From positions 1,153 to 41,466 of the forward strand of contig PLOC01000034.1 in NCBI GenBank assembly GCA_003141955.1: a stretch of 40,314 nt of DNA, given 5' to 3'. Below, one piece after another: positions 1,757 through 39,216 of this stretch. A model generated the notes under the pieces. It made no database searches. It was not told the origin of the DNA and saw only the letters and a list, made by a program, of their open reading frames with translations. Origin of the DNA: Chloroflexota bacterium. Its GTDB lineage: Bacteria; Chloroflexota; Limnocylindria; Limnocylindrales; CSP1-4. Both the position numbers and the translations under genes were made by a program. Position 1 is the first letter of the stretch; the number at the start of each line of letters is the position of its first letter.

Positions 1757-2176
1757 ATGCGCCGTTACGAACTCATGCTCGTGCTGCGCCCGGATCTTGC
1801 GGATGACAAGGTCCAGGCCTCACTCGAGCGAACCGCCCGAGCCATCGCGGCAGGCGGCGGTCAGATCGTCAAGCAGGCCCCCTGGGGTCGGCGGCGGCTG
1901 GCCTATCCCATCGACCACCATCGCGAAGGGTCGTACTACGTCGTTCTCTTCGAGGCGCCGGCGACGGCGATCGCCGAGCTGGAGCGCGGCTTGATGATCA
2001 GCGAGGAAGTCCTGCGCCACCTCGTTACCCGCGTCGAGCGCCCGGTGCGGGCGGCTCGCGGACGTGACGTCGAGGGCGACGTCGAGGTCGAGCCTCCGAG
2101 CGACGACGAGGAGCTCGAGGACGAGGCGCTCATCGACGAGTCGGAGAGCGAAGCGGCGCCTGCCGCGATCGACTGA
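1757..2176 (+). CDS. rpsF: 30S ribosomal protein S6
   Basis: S6 binds the platform of the small ribosomal subunit together with S18. The 139-residue product begins MRRYELMLVLRPDL and shows the conserved WGRRRLAYPIDHHREG block, which interacts with S18 and rRNA. The core ends near residue 100. A strongly acidic tail follows (EPPSDDEELEDEALIDESES), reminiscent of the polyglutamate tail that RimK adds to E. coli S6, but here it is encoded in the gene. The ATG at 1757 is preferred over one at 1736 because the homologous N-terminus starts there and AAGGAG precedes it. It is followed by ssb and rpsR in the classic operon order. Confidence 0.96.
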   Translation: MRRYELMLVLRPDLADDKVQASLERTARAIAAGGGQIVKQAPWGRRRLAYPIDHHREGSYYVVLFEAPATAIAELERGLMISEEVLRHLVTRVERPVRAARGRDVEGDVEVEPPSDDEELEDEALIDESESEAAPAAID

Positions 2177-2209
2177 GGCCCGCGCGACGCGGAGCTGGAG
2201 GCACGCTCG

Positions 2210-2650
2210 ATGTCGCTGAACAAGGCAATGATCATCGGCAATCTCGGCAAGGACCCCGAGATGCGGTACACGCCCAACGGCCAGGCGGTCACGCAGTTCA
2301 CGGTTGCTGTCAACCGCAACTACAAGGACGCCAGCGGGGAGTGGAAGGAAGAGACCGAGTGGTTCCGGGTGGTTGCCTGGGCCGCGCTCGCCGAGCGGAC
2401 GGCGGAGTACCTCCGCAAGGGCCGCAAGGTCTACGTCGAAGGTCGACTCCAGACACGCACCTGGGAAGGCCAGGACGGGCAGAAGCACTACACCACGGAG
2501 CTGATCGCCAGCACCGTCACAGGTCTGGACCCTCGACCGCGCGAGGACGGAGCCCAGGAACCCGCGGGCGCGCGACCAGCGCGCGGCGCCGCTCCGGCGG
2601 GGTCGTCCGAGGATCTCGGCTCGAGCGACCTGGACGAGCTGCCCTTCTGA
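2210..2650 (+). CDS. ssb: Single-stranded DNA-binding protein
   Basis: SSB coats single-stranded DNA during replication, recombination and repair and recruits partner proteins through its C-terminal tip. The 146-residue product has a complete OB fold (residues 1-105) with NKAMIIGNLGKDPEMRYTPNG, the FTVAVNR strand and KVYVEGRLQTRTWEG. A short Pro/Ala-rich linker and an acidic tip ending DLDELPF follow, the equivalent of DDDIPF that binds proteins such as PriA and RecG, both of which are encoded in this window. It sits 33 bases after rpsF, with a GGAG site before the ATG, and is co-transcribed with rpsF and rpsR. Confidence 0.97.
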   Translation: MSLNKAMIIGNLGKDPEMRYTPNGQAVTQFTVAVNRNYKDASGEWKEETEWFRVVAWAALAERTAEYLRKGRKVYVEGRLQTRTWEGQDGQKHYTTELIASTVTGLDPRPREDGAQEPAGARPARGAAPAGSSEDLGSSDLDELPF

Positions 2651-2731
2651 ACATCGCCGGCCGGTTGCCGGCGTCCACGAACCCAATCGCCGCGCCGCGA
2701 GCGTGGCCCTGCTGACAAAGGAACGACACGG

Positions 2732-3010
2732 ATGCCTGCATACACTCGAGAGAAGCCCAAGGGCAAGCGCGACGACTACTACCGCGATCGGCGCCGTCGC
2801 AAGGTCTGCACGTTCTGTGCGGACAAGACCGTCATGATCGACTACAAGGAAGTGAACCGGTTGCGGCGCTACCTCTCCGAGCGTGCCAAGATCGAGCCGC
2901 GACGCAAGACCGGGACCTGCGCCAATCACCAGCGCCAGCTCGCCGTCGCCTTGAAGCGTGCCCGCATCGTCGCCTTGCTGCCGTACGCGCCCCAGCACGT
3001 CCGGCCCTGA
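2732..3010 (+). CDS. rpsR: 30S ribosomal protein S18 (zinc-binding type)
   Basis: S18 pairs with S6 on the platform of the 30S subunit. The 92-residue product has a basic N-terminus, then [11 protein letters not shown] with a CxxC pair, the [18 protein letters not shown] block diagnostic of S18, and [29 protein letters not shown]. The Cys pair plus the later Cys and His look like a zinc site (the C+ form), whereas E. coli S18 lacks it. The ATG at 2732 follows AAAGGAACG. It is the last gene of rpsF-ssb-rpsR. Confidence 0.97.
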
Positions 3011-3071
3011 CCCCGTGGAGCCTGGCGCGCCGGCTCGACTCGGTTGCGCCGGGACGGGCTGATCCGCGGCC

Positions 3072-3944
3072 GTGGCTGAGCTGCTGCTGATCGTCGGCGG
3101 CGTGGCCGCGGGCGCATTCGGCGCGCTGCTCGGCCTGGGCGGCGGGGTGTTGATCGTGCCGCTGCTCACCCTGGGCTTCGGGTTGCCACTTCGAGAGTCG
3201 GTCGGCGCCAGTCTGGTCTGCGTCATCGTGACCAGCAGCGCAGCCGCCTCAGTCTATCTCCAGCGCGACGTCGCGAATCTGCGGCTCGGCATGACGCTGG
3301 AGATGTTCACGGCGATCGCGGCGATGGCGGGCGGGCTGGTGGCGTTTCTCGTGCCAGATCGTGTCCTGGCCCTGATGTTCGCGGCCCTGCTCGCATATGT
3401 TGCGGTCACGATGGCCCGCGCCCGGGACGCCAGGGACGGCCGAGTTGCCCAAGACGCCGCCGATGCGCCAGGCGACGCCCCCCGAGAAGCAGCTGAGGAC
3501 GCCGAGCGGCGACCAGGCGGCACGAATACTGCGGGCGACGGCGGGCTGATCGCCTCCCTGTCGGGTCCCGGCTATCGTGTTCGCAACCTCGGCCTCGGCG
3601 TGCTCGGGAGCCTGGTGGCCGGGGTAGTCAGCGCCCTGTTCGGGGTCGGAGGCGGGATCGTCAAGGTGCCGGTCATGAACCTGATCATGGGCGTGCCGAT
3701 TCGGGTGGCCACGGCAACGAGCAACCTCATGATCGGCGTGACCGCCTCGGCGGGCGCTCTGATCTACCTGTTCCGCGGGGGCATCGACCCATACGTGGCC
3801 GCGCCTACGGCCCTGGGTGTCTTCGCCGGGGCGAGCCTGGCGTCGCGCCTGTCCCACCGGGTCGACCTGGGCACTCTTCGGCTGCTGTTCGTCGCCGTGC
3901 TGGTTGTCACTGCCGCCCAGATGGCGCTGCGGGGAATCGGATGA
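3072..3944 (+). CDS. TauE/SafE family sulfite/anion exporter
   Basis: The 290-residue polytopic membrane protein belongs to the TauE/SafE (sulfite exporter) family, which moves sulfite, sulfonates or related small anions across the cytoplasmic membrane. It has the two family repeats: GAFGALLGLGGGVLIVPLL near residue 17 and ALFGVGGGIVKVPVMNL near residue 190, each followed by several hydrophobic helices. A hydrophilic, acidic loop of about 45 residues (115-160) separates the halves. The start is GTG at 3072. Its stop overlaps the start of the DUF1634 gene by four bases, so the two are translationally coupled. The true substrate cannot be told from sequence; the APS kinase-like gene 2.4 kb away makes a sulfur compound possible. 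Confidence 0.88.
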   Translation: MAELLLIVGGVAAGAFGALLGLGGGVLIVPLLTLGFGLPLRESVGASLVCVIVTSSAAASVYLQRDVANLRLGMTLEMFTAIAAMAGGLVAFLVPDRVLALMFAALLAYVAVTMARARDARDGRVAQDAADAPGDAPREAAEDAERRPGGTNTAGDGGLIASLSGPGYRVRNLGLGVLGSLVAGVVSALFGVGGGIVKVPVMNLIMGVPIRVATATSNLMIGVTASAGALIYLFRGGIDPYVAAPTALGVFAGASLASRLSHRVDLGTLRLLFVAVLVVTAAQMALRGIG

Positions 3945-10103: not shown

Positions 10104-13448
<3,345 letters not shown>

Positions 13449-33537: not shown

Positions 33538-34824
33538 ATGCCGTCATTTCGAGCCCCCAGGGGCACCCGCGACCTGCTCCCCGATGTCAGCTCGGGACTG
33601 AATCGACTCGAGGGAATCGCCCGCTCGCTGGCCGGCCGCTACGGCTATCGCGAGATGGAGATCCCGATGTTCGAGCAGACGGCCGTCTTCGAGCGCGGGA
33701 TCGGCGAAGTGACCGACGTCGTCGAGAAGGAGTTGTTCCGGCTCGCGCCTCGAACCGAGGAGGCGGAGGCGTGGGCGCTCCGGCCCGAGGCCACGGCCGG
33801 GATCGTCAGGGCGTTCGTGCAGCACGGCATGCAGACGTGGCCGCAGCCGGTGAAGCTGACCGTGGTCGGTCCGATGTTCCGCTACGACCGGCCGCAGGCC
33901 GGCCGCTACCGTCAGTTCTGGCAGTGGGACGCGGAGGCGATCGGCGATCCGGGGCCGGCTGTGGACGCCGAGATGATCGAGATGGGCTACCGCTTCTACG
34001 TGGAGGCGGGCGTGCCCGACGTGCAGGTTCTGCTGAACTCGATCGGCGACGGGGCCTGCCGGCCGGCTTACCTGGCGCAGCTGACGGCCTACTTCCGGCG
34101 CCACGAGGCGGAGTTGCCCGAACTCGAGCGGCGACGGCTGGACGCGAACCCGCTTCGCCTGCTGGATTCGAAGGATGCGGCGATGGCGGCCCTGGTGGCG
34201 GCCGCGCCCAGGATCGGCGACTGCCTGTGCGAAGCCTGCGCGGCCCATTTCGCCGCCGTGAGGGCCCACCTGGAGGCGATCGGCGTGCCCTATCGCGTGG
34301 AGCCGACGCTCGTGCGCGGCCTGGACTACTACACCCGGACGACCTTCGAGTACTACCGCCGCGGCGCCGAGGGGCAACAGCAGGCCCTGGGTGGCGGCGG
34401 CCGATACGACGGCCTGGTCGAGTTGCTGGGCGGCCGGCCAACGCCCGGTATCGGCTTTGCCCTCGGCCTGGACCGCGTCCTGCTGGCGCTCGACGAGACG
34501 CGGGCCATGGCCGCGGCCATGGCTCCGCCGCTGGCGGTCGTCGTCGGGGCTGATCCGGCCGACACGATCGCGCGCCTGCGGGTGGCCAGCCTGCTTCGCG
34601 CCGAGGGGCTGTGCGTTCGGGCGGAGCTGGCGCAGCGCAAGCTGGGTCGGCAGCTCGAGACGGCGTCGCGCGACCACGCCCACTTTGCGGTGATCATCGG
34701 CGACGAGCTCAACGAGGGGCACGTCCAGCTCAAGGACCTCGAGGCCGGCACGCAGCGGCTGGTGCCGCTCGGGGAACTCGCCCGCGAATTGGCCCGGGCG
34801 GCGAAGAGCCATCATCACGGGTAG
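33538..34824 (+). CDS. hisS: Histidyl-tRNA synthetase
   Basis: HisRS charges tRNA-His. The 428-residue class II enzyme has RAPRGTRDLLPD, motif 2 with FRYDRPQAGRYRQFWQWDAE, the histidine-specific loop VRGLDYYTRTTFEYYRRG (HisA), GGGGRYDGLVELLGG, and motif 3 GIGFALGLDRVLLAL. A Rossmann-like anticodon domain starts about residue 335. The ATG at 33538 lies six bases from a -10-like TAGACT and has no ribosome binding site. The usual hisS-aspS pairing is split here by a sigma factor pair. Confidence 0.95.
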   Translation: MPSFRAPRGTRDLLPDVSSGLNRLEGIARSLAGRYGYREMEIPMFEQTAVFERGIGEVTDVVEKELFRLAPRTEEAEAWALRPEATAGIVRAFVQHGMQTWPQPVKLTVVGPMFRYDRPQAGRYRQFWQWDAEAIGDPGPAVDAEMIEMGYRFYVEAGVPDVQVLLNSIGDGACRPAYLAQLTAYFRRHEAELPELERRRLDANPLRLLDSKDAAMAALVAAAPRIGDCLCEACAAHFAAVRAHLEAIGVPYRVEPTLVRGLDYYTRTTFEYYRRGAEGQQQALGGGGRYDGLVELLGGRPTPGIGFALGLDRVLLALDETRAMAAAMAPPLAVVVGADPADTIARLRVASLLRAEGLCVRAELAQRKLGRQLETASRDHAHFAVIIGDELNEGHVQLKDLEAGTQRLVPLGELARELARAAKSHHHG

Positions 34825-34858
34825 CTGAAGCGCCTGGAAGGCCGCGGCAGGGCCTCCG

Positions 34859-34884
34859 GGAACGAATCGCCCGTGCGGACGGTC
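34859..34884 (+). promoter_or_regulatory. Possible ECF-sigma-type promoter (GGAAC-16-CGGTC)
   Basis: GGAAC (34859-34863) and CGGTC (34880-34884) separated by 16 bases resemble ECF promoters, whose -35 contains AAC and whose -10 contains CGT or GTC. It sits about 19 bases before the sigma factor ATG, fitting autoregulation. Confidence 0.4.
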
Positions 34885-34902
34885 ATAGGTGGTGACAGGC
34901 CA

Positions 34903-35448
34903 ATGGAGGGAGCGGTGGAGCTGGAGCTGGTGCTCGCGGCCCGGCGTGGCGACGAGGTCGCCTTCGCTCGGCTAGTCGAAGCGGAAGCTCCGCGCACCTA
35001 TCGCGCCGTTCTGGCGATCGTCCGCTCCCCCGAGGATGCGCAGGAGGTGATGCAGGATGCGTCGATGCGAGCCTGGCGTCAGCTTCGGGGTCTGCGGGAG
35101 GCCGACAGCTGGCCGGCCTGGTTTCGTCGAATCGCCGTTCGACAGGCATTCGATCGCGCGGGCCGACAGGGGCGTACCCGCCTGCGTGAGGTCAGCCTGG
35201 AATCTGCCGAGGGCGAGGCCGGGCACGATCCGAGCTCGGGTTGGGCATACCGGGCGACCGTAATGGCTGCGTTGCATCACCTGTCCAGCGAGGATCGAGC
35301 TCTGCTCGGCTTGCGATTCGGTGCCGACCTCGCGGTGCCGGACGTCGCCGCGGCTCTCGGGATTCCGCTAGGCACGGCGAAGTCGAGGCTCCACCGGGCG
35401 CTCGGCCGTCTGGCGGCGGCGATGGGAGAAGACGATGTCCGACGATGA
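34903..35448 (+). CDS. ECF-type RNA polymerase sigma factor
   Basis: The 181-residue product is an extracytoplasmic-function sigma factor. Region 2 (about residues 15-75) includes AFARLVEAEAPRTYRAVLAI, RSPEDAQEVMQDASMRAWRQL and the WPAWFRRIAVRQAFD stretch. Region 4 (about 120-170) has LSSEDRALLGLRFGADLAV and the helix-turn-helix DVAAALGIPLGTAKSRLHRAL. It directs polymerase to a stress-specific promoter set, unknown here. The ATG at 34903 is preferred over a GTG at 34873. The next gene overlaps it by 14 bases and encodes a single-span membrane protein, the usual place of an anti-sigma factor. Confidence 0.93.
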   Translation: MEGAVELELVLAARRGDEVAFARLVEAEAPRTYRAVLAIVRSPEDAQEVMQDASMRAWRQLRGLREADSWPAWFRRIAVRQAFDRAGRQGRTRLREVSLESAEGEAGHDPSSGWAYRATVMAALHHLSSEDRALLGLRFGADLAVPDVAAALGIPLGTAKSRLHRALGRLAAAMGEDDVRR

Positions 35449-36223
35449 GCCGGTCCTCAAGGCCCGAGAAGAGCGTGCCGCCGCCGGGCTGCGGCTTGCG
35501 CTCCGCGCCACGAGTGAGGAATGGCCTTTGCGAGTGGATGCGGCCGCGTGGGTGGCGAGCGTGCCGAATCGACGATCGATCGGGCGTCGTCTCCCGGTCG
35601 GCATCGCCGCGACGCTGGTCGTGATAGTCGTGGGCACCGTGGCGTTCGCCGCGTGGTCTCGGGGTGCGCCCGAAGGTGGAGGGGCTTCTCCCTCGGCGGG
35701 ACCCTCGATCCCGGGGACCCCTGGCCACTTCGACAACGGCGAGCTGTCCTTCGACTACCCTGCCGACTGGCCGGTCCTCGCAGGGGGGTTCTCCAGCGGT
35801 GGCGTGGAATACGTGCTGGCGGTGCTCGGCAACGGCACCTGGCGAGAAGGATGTGTTTACACGGCCAATTCAATGACGTGCGGCCCCGACACATTCGACG
35901 TCTCGCGCGGTGGGATTCTCGTGAAGGTATACCGGTGGTGGGGCGGGCCCATGGTGCCGTGCCGCGGCGACACGCAGGCCAACGCCACTTTCGGCGACCT
36001 TGCCGTGCGCAAGACTGTCGACGGGACGATGACGACGTGGGAGATCCGACTCCCCGGAAACGAGTTCGGCCAGCCCAACAACATCTTCGTTGAAGTACAC
36101 ACGAGCAGCTCGAGCCAGCTGACTCGAGCCGAAGACCTGGTCGCGAGCTTCCAGTGGATCGATACCTCGGGCAACTTCGCATGCCCGACCGGACTGCCGA
36201 CTGGAATGCCCGGCCCAAGCTAG
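35435..36223 (+). CDS. Probable anti-sigma factor with PsbP-like outer domain
   Basis: The 262-residue protein has a cytoplasmic part (residues 1-50), one membrane helix (about 53-74, PVGIAATLVVIVVGTVAFAA), a Pro/Gly-rich linker, and an extracytoplasmic domain (about 95-250) starting FDNGELSFDYPADWPV. That FDYPxDW stretch resembles PsbP/DUF1795-type domains. The domain contains four cysteines that could form disulfides. No zinc-binding anti-sigma (HxxxCxxC) motif is visible. Position and a 14-base overlap with the sigma gene suggest that it holds the sigma factor inactive until an outer signal is sensed. That role is inference; no family name is certain. Confidence 0.65.
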   Translation: MSDDEPVLKAREERAAAGLRLALRATSEEWPLRVDAAAWVASVPNRRSIGRRLPVGIAATLVVIVVGTVAFAAWSRGAPEGGGASPSAGPSIPGTPGHFDNGELSFDYPADWPVLAGGFSSGGVEYVLAVLGNGTWREGCVYTANSMTCGPDTFDVSRGGILVKVYRWWGGPMVPCRGDTQANATFGDLAVRKTVDGTMTTWEIRLPGNEFGQPNNIFVEVHTSSSSQLTRAEDLVASFQWIDTSGNFACPTGLPTGMPGPS

Positions 36224-36258: not shown

Positions 36259-36264
36259 TACGAT
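36259..36264 (+). promoter_or_regulatory. Possible -10 element (TACGAT) for aspS
   Basis: TACGAT ends seven bases before the aspS ATG at 36272, again implying a near-leaderless mRNA. No ribosome binding site or clear -35 is seen. Confidence 0.45.
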
Positions 36265-36271
36265 GCGCGGC

Positions 36272-38170
36272 ATGAGTGAGCCCACGCCGTCCTCGACCTC
36301 GCCCGAAGCAGCCTTCAGCCTGACTACGCCGTATCGCGACGTGACGTGCGGCGAGCTGCGCGCTGGCGACGCCGGGCGCGAAGTGCGAATAGCCGGCTGG
36401 GTCCATCGACGCCGGGACCACGGCCAGCTCATCTTCCTGGACCTGCGCGATCGCTACGGCATCACCCAGGTGGTTGTCAACCAGGCGGAGACACCTCAGG
36501 CCGCTTCGGTGGCCGCGAGGGTCCGCAACGAGTTCGTACTCGAGATCCGAGGCGCGGTCGCTCACAGGCTGGCCGGGATGGAGAACGCGAAGCTGGCAAC
36601 CGGCGAGATCGAAGTTCAGGCCCAATCGGTCGAGATCCTGAGCGAGGCGGAGACCCCACCCTTCTACATCAACGAGCCCGACGCGCCGGTCGACGAGAGC
36701 CTGCGGCTGAAGTATCGATACCTCGACATTCGGCGGCGGCCGATGCTCGAGCGGCTGATGCTGCGCTCGGAGCTTGTCCACGCCATCCGCGAGGCCCACT
36801 ACCGGGCCGGCTTCGTCGAGGTTGAGACGCCGATCCTGCTCAAGTCCACGCCCGAGGGTGCGCGCGATTTCATCGTCCCCAGCCGGCTTCAGCCCGGCAC
36901 CGTGTACGCGCTGCCCCAGAGCCCGCAGCAGCTCAAGCAGCTGTTGATGGTCGCCGGCATGGACCGCTACTTCCAGATCGCCCGCTGCTTCCGCGACGAG
37001 GACTTGCGCGGCGATCGCCAGCTCGAGTTCACCCAGCTTGACTTGGAGATGAGCTTCGTCACCGAACAGCGGGTGATGGACTTCGTCGAGGCAATGATCG
37101 TCGAGGTCAGCCGCAAGGTCGTGCCGGATCGGCCGATCCAGCAGCTGCCGTTTCCCCGGATCGACTATGCCGAGGCGCTCGAACGTTTCGGCTCCGACAA
37201 GCCCGACCTTCGGTTCGGCATGGAGCTGGTGGATCTCGCGCCGGCCCTGGGAGAGGGGAGCACGGGCTTCCACGTCTTTGACGAGGCCCTCGCCGCCGGA
37301 GGGCGCGTCAAAGCGATCGCGGCCCCGGGCATGGCCGATGCCAGCCGCTCACAGATCGATGAGCTGGTGCAGTTTGCGCGCCTGTACGGGGCCGGGGGCC
37401 TGGCCCATGTCTCGGTGGATGCCGACGGCGCGGCGCACTCGCCGATCGCGAAGTTCCTGGGCGAGGAGCGGATCGCGGCGGTGATTTCGGCCGCGGCGGC
37501 CGGGCCGGGCGACCTGGTCCTCATCGTCGCCAACGCGAACCATGAGATCGTGGCCGACGTGCTCGGCCGCCTGCGCCAGGAGCTGGGCCAGCGTCTCAGC
37601 CTGGCCGACCCGAACGTCCTGGCCTACTGCTGGGTGTACCACTTCCCGATGTACCAGTGGGATTCCGAGCGAGGACGCTGGGACGCCACTCACAATCCAT
37701 TCAGCGGGGTCTTGCCCGACGACGAGGGGCTTCTCGTCACCGCGTCCGGCGATCCGTACAGGCCGTCGCGCGGGGATCCGGCCGGTCGGGCGCGGGCGAT
37801 GCAGTACGACATCGCCCTCAACGGCTGGGAGCTCGGCGGCGGGTCGGTTCGGATCCACAGGCGCGAGCTGCTGCAGCGCAGCTTCGCGCTGCAGGGCTAC
37901 TCGCTCGAGAAGATGCACGACCTGTTCGGTGGGATCCTGGAGGCCTTCGACTACGGTGCGCCGCCGCACGGCGGGATCGCCATGGGCATCGACCGCTGGG
38001 CCGCTCTCTTCTCGAATCAGACCAACATTCGTGAGGTCATGGCCTTCCCGAAGACCCAGTCCGGGACCGACTTGATGCTGGAAGCCCCTTCACAGCCCGA
38101 TCCGGAGCAGTACGCTGAGCTCGGCCTGCGGTTTGAGGGTGTTAGCTCGCAGCAAATCGGCGGCCGCTAG
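36272..38170 (+). CDS. aspS: Aspartyl-tRNA synthetase (bacterial type)
   Basis: AspRS charges tRNA-Asp (and tRNA-Asn if non-discriminating, for later amidation by GatCAB). The 632-residue product has the OB anticodon domain (VRIAGWVHRRRDHGQLIFLDLRD), motif 2 FRDEDLRGDRQLEFTQLD, the bacterial-type GAD insertion (about residues 310-430), and motif 3 PPHGGIAMGIDRWAALF. GARDFIVPSR and YALPQSPQQLKQLLMVAGMD are typical. Its length exceeds E. coli AspRS (590) by an N-terminal extension and a C-terminal tail. The in-frame ATG at 36263 is three codons earlier, inside the likely -10 box, so 36272 is preferred. Confidence 0.95.
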   Translation: MSEPTPSSTSPEAAFSLTTPYRDVTCGELRAGDAGREVRIAGWVHRRRDHGQLIFLDLRDRYGITQVVVNQAETPQAASVAARVRNEFVLEIRGAVAHRLAGMENAKLATGEIEVQAQSVEILSEAETPPFYINEPDAPVDESLRLKYRYLDIRRRPMLERLMLRSELVHAIREAHYRAGFVEVETPILLKSTPEGARDFIVPSRLQPGTVYALPQSPQQLKQLLMVAGMDRYFQIARCFRDEDLRGDRQLEFTQLDLEMSFVTEQRVMDFVEAMIVEVSRKVVPDRPIQQLPFPRIDYAEALERFGSDKPDLRFGMELVDLAPALGEGSTGFHVFDEALAAGGRVKAIAAPGMADASRSQIDELVQFARLYGAGGLAHVSVDADGAAHSPIAKFLGEERIAAVISAAAAGPGDLVLIVANANHEIVADVLGRLRQELGQRLSLADPNVLAYCWVYHFPMYQWDSERGRWDATHNPFSGVLPDDEGLLVTASGDPYRPSRGDPAGRARAMQYDIALNGWELGGGSVRIHRRELLQRSFALQGYSLEKMHDLFGGILEAFDYGAPPHGGIAMGIDRWAALFSNQTNIREVMAFPKTQSGTDLMLEAPSQPDPEQYAELGLRFEGVSSQQIGGR

Positions 38171-38229: not shown

Positions 38230-39216
38230 TTGGAATCAGAGACGGATCAGAGATACGTTCGCTCCCGGCGCTGCCACGGCGTTTTCGAGGCGGGGCTTCC
38301 CAACTGCTCGAGGTGCGGAGCGGCCTACGTCCCGTCCCCCGATGCACCGGAGGCCCAGCCCGGTTCGTACGCGGAGAAGTACATGGGCTCGGAGTTTGCC
38401 CCGTCGCCGGACGTGCCGCCATCGATCCCGCCGGCCAATCGGTCGGGGCTGGGCTTTCTGCTCGCGATTGGCGTGGTCCTGGTCATCACCGCGCTGGCTG
38501 TGGGTGGGTTGGTCGCGATGGGCGCCTTCGACAATCCGGCGCCGACGCCGCGCCAGGACATCGTCGTGGCCAAGCCGCCGACGCCGACTCCTGTGCCCAC
38601 CCTGCCACCGATCGTAACCAAGACGCTCCAGGAGCTCGCCGATCCCGACCTGAACATACACGTCTCGATCCGGACGACCGTATCGGTCAATGCCCGCGTA
38701 AACGGTCGTTCGGTATCGATGAACGTGAACATGGAGGTCGATTGCGCGGGCGGCAATGAATCGGGCACGGACACCACTGGCGGAGTCACCTATGACTGGC
38801 GTCTGGTCGACGGAACGTACTACCTGCGGCGAGAGCCCACCGGAACGTGGAAGGCCCAGGGTACGGTTTCTCCTTTCGTGGTCCTGAGCCCGCTGTTTTC
38901 GCTCACCGAACCTCGAATGCTCCAATACGATGGCCCCGACGAGGTGAATGGGGTACAGGCCGACAAGCTGGAGAGCACGCCCTGGTGGACTCCGGACTCC
39001 GGCAAATTGAGCGGCCTGGACGTTGCCACCCTGGACATCAGCCCCCAGCACACCCAGCTCGTGCTTTGGGTCGCCGGTGACGGCTCGCCGGTCTACGCCA
39101 CCTTCAGGGCGTGGACGGACGCCAGCGACGGGACCAACCTGCTCAACATCTCGACGACGTACACGTTCTCGAATGAGGGCGTAGTAATGCCTATCCCCAC
39201 GCCGACGATGAAGTAG
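38230..39216 (+). CDS. Zinc-ribbon/TM protein with exported beta-rich domain (TTG start)
   Basis: The 328-residue protein starts with a short Cys-containing segment (RCHGVFEAGLPNCSRCGAAY) that looks like a degenerate zinc ribbon with three cysteines. A Pro-rich stretch and one membrane helix (about residues 74-98, GLGFLLAIGVVLVITALAVG) follow, then a Pro/Thr linker (TPTPVPTLPP). The outer domain (about 130-328) is beta-rich (VSIRTTVSVNARVNGRSVSM, YDWRLVDGTYYLRR, KLSGLDVATLDIS), reminiscent of LppX/LprG-like lipid-binding folds, but I cannot confirm that. The TTG at 38230 is supported by GGAG and GGAGAGGG upstream. Function unknown. Confidence 0.7.
   Translation: MESETDQRYVRSRRCHGVFEAGLPNCSRCGAAYVPSPDAPEAQPGSYAEKYMGSEFAPSPDVPPSIPPANRSGLGFLLAIGVVLVITALAVGGLVAMGAFDNPAPTPRQDIVVAKPPTPTPVPTLPPIVTKTLQELADPDLNIHVSIRTTVSVNARVNGRSVSMNVNMEVDCAGGNESGTDTTGGVTYDWRLVDGTYYLRREPTGTWKAQGTVSPFVVLSPLFSLTEPRMLQYDGPDEVNGVQADKLESTPWWTPDSGKLSGLDVATLDISPQHTQLVLWVAGDGSPVYATFRAWTDASDGTNLLNISTTYTFSNEGVVMPIPTPTMK

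Follow-up and report, generated by a model that had tools for sequence, protein, structure and literature searches.

What do two overlapping genes do between hisS and aspS, and how did they come to stand there? The window, our name for the whole stretch of 40,314 nucleotides analysed here, derives from a Chloroflexota genome, and all positions given below refer to it unless another contig is named. Gene calls and neighbour comparison place hisS at 33538..34824 and aspS at 36263..38170, both on the plus strand, and the gap between them consists of a sigma factor gene and a gene for its partner protein. The first-pass annotation had suggested that the pair splits a usual hisS-aspS neighbourhood by insertion, and the comparison bears this out: of 17 loci from further genera of this family and class, 16 were found to have hisS ahead of aspS, and in 11 of those 16 it lies within 300 nt. 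For the genus itself we used 21 genomes, the named relatives being Chloroflexi bacteria from fen metagenome-assembled genomes (MAGs), and the hisS-aspS gap is readable in 20 (the G019 contig begins at aspS).

The sigma gene and its start

The upstream gene (34915..35448, plus strand) encodes an ECF sigma factor of 177 aa from a likely GTG start. Pfam Sigma70_r2 (E 9.9e-12), Sigma70_r4 (E 1.5e-9) and NCBIfam sigma70-ECF are all matched above cut-off, in keeping with the earlier description of a compact ECF sigma gene, and TIGR02983 reaches 98 bits, below its cut-off of 141.6. The definition of ECF (group IV) factors given in an excerpt of PMC8103513 requires sigma2 and sigma4 domains only, with a linker of fewer than 50 residues; the window protein has this two-domain layout, with r2 at residues 34-102 and r4 at 130/133-180 of the 191-aa ORF. 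A dN/dS of 0.12-0.20 across six orthologue pairs shows that the gene is under purifying selection.

ORF callers put the start at GTG 34873, which falls inside the promoter, or at ATG 34903. Because ATG 34903 is lost in two of the six orthologues (G014 and G018, the latter with an in-frame TAG in its place) while GTG 34915 and the Shine-Dalgarno-like stretch before it (GGAGGGAG, 34905..34912, plus strand, a conserved block in the orthologue alignment) persist across orthologues, we take GTG 34915 as the likely start; the promoter would therefore lie wholly outside the gene.

A probable autoregulatory promoter

Alignment of the upstream regions of the six orthologues revealed two conserved islands, GGGAACGAA(T/A)CG and CGGTCATAG(G/C)T(G/A)GTGAC, separated by 10-11 nt. 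The -35 element, GGGAACGAATCG (34858..34869, plus strand), is identical at 11 of 12 bases in all six, the single difference being A/T, and its flanks are unconserved; the -10 element with its downstream block, CGGTCATAGGTGGTGAC (34880..34896, plus strand), is delimited by the alignment and by a genome motif search. The AAC expected of an ECF -35 box is present as GGGAAC in every orthologue, whereas the -10 box is CGGTCATA in all six and lacks CGT. According to the excerpted text of PMC8103513, CGT in the -10 was an early ECF criterion, from a definition since narrowed to the pair of domains and the core contacts. The combined motif GGGAACGAATCG-N10-11-CGGTCATAGGTGGTGAC is conserved in 6/6 orthologues and has exactly one site, always at the sigma gene, in each of the six sigma-bearing genomes, none in the 15 other genomes of the genus and none as a reversed control, a strict co-occurrence of the extended promoter motif with the sigma gene.

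The promoter had originally been proposed in a shorter form, GGAAC-N16-CGGTC, with the proviso that the idea would fall if the motif were not enriched upstream of the sigma gene in relatives. When this was examined the motif was present in all six, and the sigma gene's own promoter stands in its longer, conserved form. The short form is indeed found at 34859-34884, and the window holds two copies of it, a number reached by 2 of 100 shuffles. The spacing between GGAAC and CGGTC is 16 nt in the window genome (G000) and G010 and 17 nt in the other four orthologues. The second copy lies on the minus strand at 11972-11997, inside a tRNA-synthetase gene, and near-identical sites recur in relatives, as expected of conserved coding DNA. 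Searched across the genus genomes, the strict promoter gave no site beyond the sigma gene's own. Looser forms fared as follows: GGGAAC-N15-18-CGGTC had 6 sites against 17 for its reversed control; GGAAC-N15-18-CGGTCA averaged 13.3 sites in the six sigma genomes and 14.7 in the 15 sigma-less ones, which is no difference; and GGAACGAAWCG had 5 sites against 2 in the control, the four apart from the sigma gene's own being without a CGGTCATA-like -10 and situated within long open frames or next to them. No target other than the sigma gene's own promoter was detected, and we claim no wider regulon.

The partner protein

Gene calls, paralogue pairs and sequence define the downstream gene (35435..36223, plus strand), which encodes a probable membrane-bound anti-sigma factor of 262 aa and starts inside the end of the sigma gene with a 14-nt overlap. 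Its previous description as a single-span protein with an FDYPADW motif, four outer cysteines and no standard zinc anti-sigma domain is confirmed. Model and sequence predict one transmembrane helix (residues 55-76, 35597..35662, plus strand); FDYPADW begins at residue 106; the only four cysteines (140, 149, 176 and 250) all lie beyond the membrane, outside; and residues 1-139 contain no cysteine, so that the zinc Cys/His motif of class I is absent. We propose that the cytosolic stem (residues 1-52, 35435..35590, plus strand; delimited by model and stem comparison) is an anti-sigma domain without a zinc motif. An excerpt of PMC7406223 describes the class I anti-sigma domain as a four-helix structure averaging 101 residues, with at least 50; the window protein departs from it, with about 52 residues before the membrane and two helices (residues 10-29 and 36-41) in a low-confidence model (pLDDT mostly 41-65). 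The partner has no Pfam or NCBIfam match above cut-off, and the stem has neither a Pfam family match nor a profile match to a solved anti-sigma factor in the PDB; a solved anti-sigma domain is also absent from the VIA-align lists for the stem, an absence that carries no evidential weight. Over six pairs, stem and membrane helix have a dN/dS of 0.21-0.45.

The outer domain (residues 94-245, 35714..36169, plus strand), which we assign to class A from models, fold matches and the tree, is found in sister species as the domain of a free lipoprotein. In the AlphaFold models (11 rows) a beta domain that has a single helix at its C-terminal end is predicted with confidence (pLDDT mostly 80-94). With Foldseek, neither model matched a PDB entry at E 0.001 or below. 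In a second look at the matches BT_1490 was best (Z 8.1-8.3) and the sole match above 8, followed at Z 5.6-7.4 by PsbP, Mog1p, Tsi3, the C-terminal domain of RseB/MucB, LpqN and MTC28. The PsbP match has Z 6-7.4 and an rmsd of 3.7-4.8 over about 110 residues, below 8 and in the range for which the tool warns of common arrangements; with Mog1 (6.6-6.8), LpqN (5.8-6.3) and MTC28 (5.6-6.1) it belongs to a consistent set, all of Z below 8. The domain is best matched as Mog1/PsbP-like, at the level of the predicted fold only and with modest scores. The PsbP-like label attached to it by the first-pass annotation is retained at that level (Z about 6-7) but does not extend to the Pfam family PsbP_2, which the window partner does not match and which a relative reaches at only 14.3 bits against a cut-off of 27. 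All 26 aligned outer domains have Cys149, and 24 of them have Cys140.

A paralogous family in the genus

Judged by sequence, the pair belongs to a sigma family that is expanded in the genus. Defined as the sigma genes matching at E 1e-30 or better across the 21 genomes, the family has 25 members in 13 genomes, six of them the hisS-aspS orthologues. GGAACGWW occurs within 150 nt upstream of 24 of the 25, where shuffles predict 0.18; only L059, whose match is incomplete at the N-terminus, lacks it. The -10, by comparison, varies by paralogue group, with CGGTCATA, GCGCCATAGTAG, CGTCA and TTGCGTCACAGTAG forms, and CGTC is found in the -10 of paralogue groups. The partners examined have in common the short stem (ERLxxAL...PSPxxxDR...) and one membrane helix, while their outer parts vary between FDYP-type (Mog1/PsbP-like) domains and a Kelch propeller, and sigma/partner overlaps of 3-25 nt recur in many pairs. 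The view of the partner as a one-off of a new type is not supported, given that paralogous pairs in the genus have the same stem and -35 element. On contig 12 of the window genome itself, at positions 2006-3421 of that contig (L063), a paralogous sigma gene is followed by a short-stem partner with an outer Kelch propeller (Kelch_6, E 8.8e-35).

Free and fused outer domains at one site

The 20 readable genomes fall into three states at hisS-aspS: sigma gene and partner in six, the outer domain alone in 11, and neither in three. The same outer domain stands unfused between hisS and aspS in sister species, where the free proteins, without a sigma gene, are usually lipoproteins; by a simple pattern, 10 of 12 have a lipobox-like cysteine, the G011 protein has WGC, and the G005 protein has a membrane helix and no lipobox. 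That the outer domain occurs without the sigma gene at the same site in 11 species, and varies between close relatives, had escaped the first-pass annotation. Outside the genus the partner query matched in 1 of 40 genomes, and weakly (G035, E 5e-5), and the 17 aspS loci from other genera all proved to be without it. One genome, G020, has two hisS-aspS copies on separate contigs (L094 and L110), of which one is empty and the other carries a tandem pair of lipoproteins, and is possibly a mixed bin.

The outer domains sort into classes A, B, C and P. Among the six fused partners the window protein has A, G002 has A+P, G003 has B+P, and G010, G014 and G018 have C+B; the free forms are A, B in G004, and A and B in tandem in G020. 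AU tests, for groups that were named after a first tree, rejected a single clade both for the first domains of the six fused partners (p 9.4e-5) and for the whole set of fused domains once P is left aside (p 2.8e-4). The P class clusters with paralogue partners (99/98), a placement that carries a long-branch warning. The window genome and G003 are sisters: aspS is 93% identical at the protein level and, in 100-nt bins, 79-97% identical in DNA (most bins above 88%), against 55-64% for the outer-domain DNA. At the level of sequence comparison, these results show that close relatives combine a constant sigma-stem unit with outer domains that differ in ancestry, and the pair appears to document, in nature, how a single switch was fitted with different sensors. 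On the fuller history, in which a lipoprotein was turned into an anti-sigma sensor by insertion of the sigma-stem unit and its outer domain has since been exchanged several times with sigma factor and promoter unchanged, we are evenly divided. If true, it would provide a sensor-swap series with all states (empty, free lipoprotein, one- and two-domain fusions, loss) extant in one genus, and exchange of the sensor would presumably retarget the switch.

Capture or release of the outer domain

In a capture history the sigma gene and stem would have arrived once, in the ancestor of one clade, before a resident lipoprotein gene whose outer domain the arriving unit took over; the outer part would have been reshuffled later, and sigma gene and stem lost again in G005. 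The four-gene tree unites the six sigma genomes with G005 in a clade (SH-aLRT 100), and in G005 as well as in five of those six (the G014 contig ends) recG is found 2.4-2.9 kb ahead of hisS. The other 13 genus genomes with a located hisS have recG on another contig in 12 cases and about 200 kb away in G012. The rooting of the two-gene and four-gene trees is compatible with both capture and release, and upstream synteny is too poor to supply further markers.

Release would run the other way, with sigma gene and fused partner already in the genus ancestor and the free lipoproteins formed by loss of sigma gene and stem and gain of a signal peptide. We regard this as a serious but less than even prospect. 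Sigma genomes are basal in the rooted hisS-aspS tree, and a tree constrained to keep the other 14 genomes together as a clade is not rejected, and in fact scores slightly better. G005 resembles such a loss, lying inside the sigma clade (SH-aLRT 99) with a membrane helix instead of a lipobox and with a weak promoter-like relic (score 11.3, 3/300 shuffles) that is the best of the 15 sigma-less loci; placing G005 outside the sigma genomes is, however, not rejected either (p 0.21), and the free proteins of the 14-genome clade, unlike that of G005, mostly have lipoprotein signals. Release also demands more losses, one for the 14-genome clade and one for G005. Capture is weakly favoured because it needs fewer steps.

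Proposed mechanism and related systems

We consider it probable that the pair is an autoregulated ECF sigma factor with a membrane partner, the latter most likely inhibiting through its short cytosolic stem and sensing through its Mog1/PsbP-like domain. By analogy with the ECF systems described in excerpts of PMC7406223, PMC8103513 and PMC6056542, the stem would hold the sigma factor inactive at the membrane while the outer domain reads the outside; the sigma factor, set free by a ligand or by proteolytic cleavage of the partner, would then transcribe its own operon from GGGAACGAATCG-N10-11-CGGTCATA. Binding and inhibition by the partner, the signal and the release are inferred.

It is unlikely, though worth weighing, that the partner is a surface protein merely co-expressed by the sigma factor, whose activity would be set by its own level or by another protein. 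Such a role would fit a stem without sequence match to a known anti-sigma domain and an outer domain that exists without the sigma gene in 11 genomes. Against it, the stem is found only alongside a sigma gene, is missing from the free outer-domain proteins and recurs in paralogous pairs, and gene overlap with a lone cytosolic stem before one helix is the usual anti-sigma layout in the excerpted text of PMC6056542 and PMC7406223. Chance ORFs or an artefact of metagenome-bin assembly are very improbable, for although the named genomes are all MAGs and G020 has its two hisS-aspS copies, the same arrangement recurs on five separately named MAG contigs (L032-L036), the genes are under purifying selection, and the window genome is 95.6% complete with 0.63% contamination.

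The probable inhibitory pair resembles the RpoE-RseA, SigW-RsiW and SigK-RskA type in its sigma2 and sigma4 domains only, its overlapping downstream gene with one span, and its autoregulatory promoter with AAC in the -35. It differs in its stem of about 52 residues, shorter than class I and without zinc ligands, in a -10 (CGGTCATA) without the usual CGT, and in its Mog1/PsbP-like outer domain. Class II anti-sigma factors such as CnrY use two helices that clasp sigma4 and sigma2; the window stem is similar in length, with two helices predicted in its short stretch on the cytosolic side of the membrane, but a PDB profile search found no sequence similarity between them. RseB and MucB, whose small C-terminal domain is among the fold matches (Z about 6.2-7.1), act on an anti-sigma factor beyond the membrane, outside, but each is a separate protein with a further domain, and identity is 9-13%. 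Mog1/PsbP-like proteins (PsbP, Mog1p, LpqN and MTC28) share the predicted outer-domain fold but give no family-level sequence match, and here the domain is fused to an anti-sigma-like stem or is a free lipoprotein. SigI/RsgI of cellulolytic clostridia also form paralogous autoregulated sigma/anti-sigma pairs with outer sensory modules, although they are not ECF; an excerpt of PMC6056542 assigns their specificity to the -35, whereas here it is the -10 that varies from group to group and the -35 is common to all.

ECF pairs, autoregulation, non-zinc stems and modular sensors (the last also in SigI/RsgI) are already known. Among the papers listed in the literature searched (anti-sigma/ECF, also for Chloroflexota, PsbP-like, sensor fusion and RsgI, with few subscription papers covered) we found no description of this pair; what appears new is the combination, above all the free and fused states at one site in one genus. 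New inputs of signalling proteins are usually inferred from distant paralogues. Here sister species have the same sigma factor, promoter and site with different outer domains, and other species have one domain unfused, as a lipoprotein that offers a handle on what the sensor binds. The paralogue set, with its common -35 and group-specific -10, offers a way to test the insulation of related ECF pairs.

Other genes around hisS and aspS

Five loci of other genera (L127, L129, L131, L134 and L135) have a hisS-aspS gap of 0.5-1.4 kb with other open frames, which suggests that the site takes insertions repeatedly. Within the genus, the gap of L093 (G012) is occupied by a small ORF unrelated to the sigma pair, which we take to resemble a glyoxalase/VOC fold protein, and L108 (G017) has an open frame between hisS and the lipoprotein gene with an HHHLDH motif, presumably like that of metallo-beta-lactamase fold proteins. 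Behind aspS, the product of the gene at 38230-39216 has, by eye, a CxxC pair in its N-terminal part, a single membrane helix and an outer part rich in beta structure; all its Pfam matches are sub-threshold, and it is retained at this position in several relatives at 30-82% identity.
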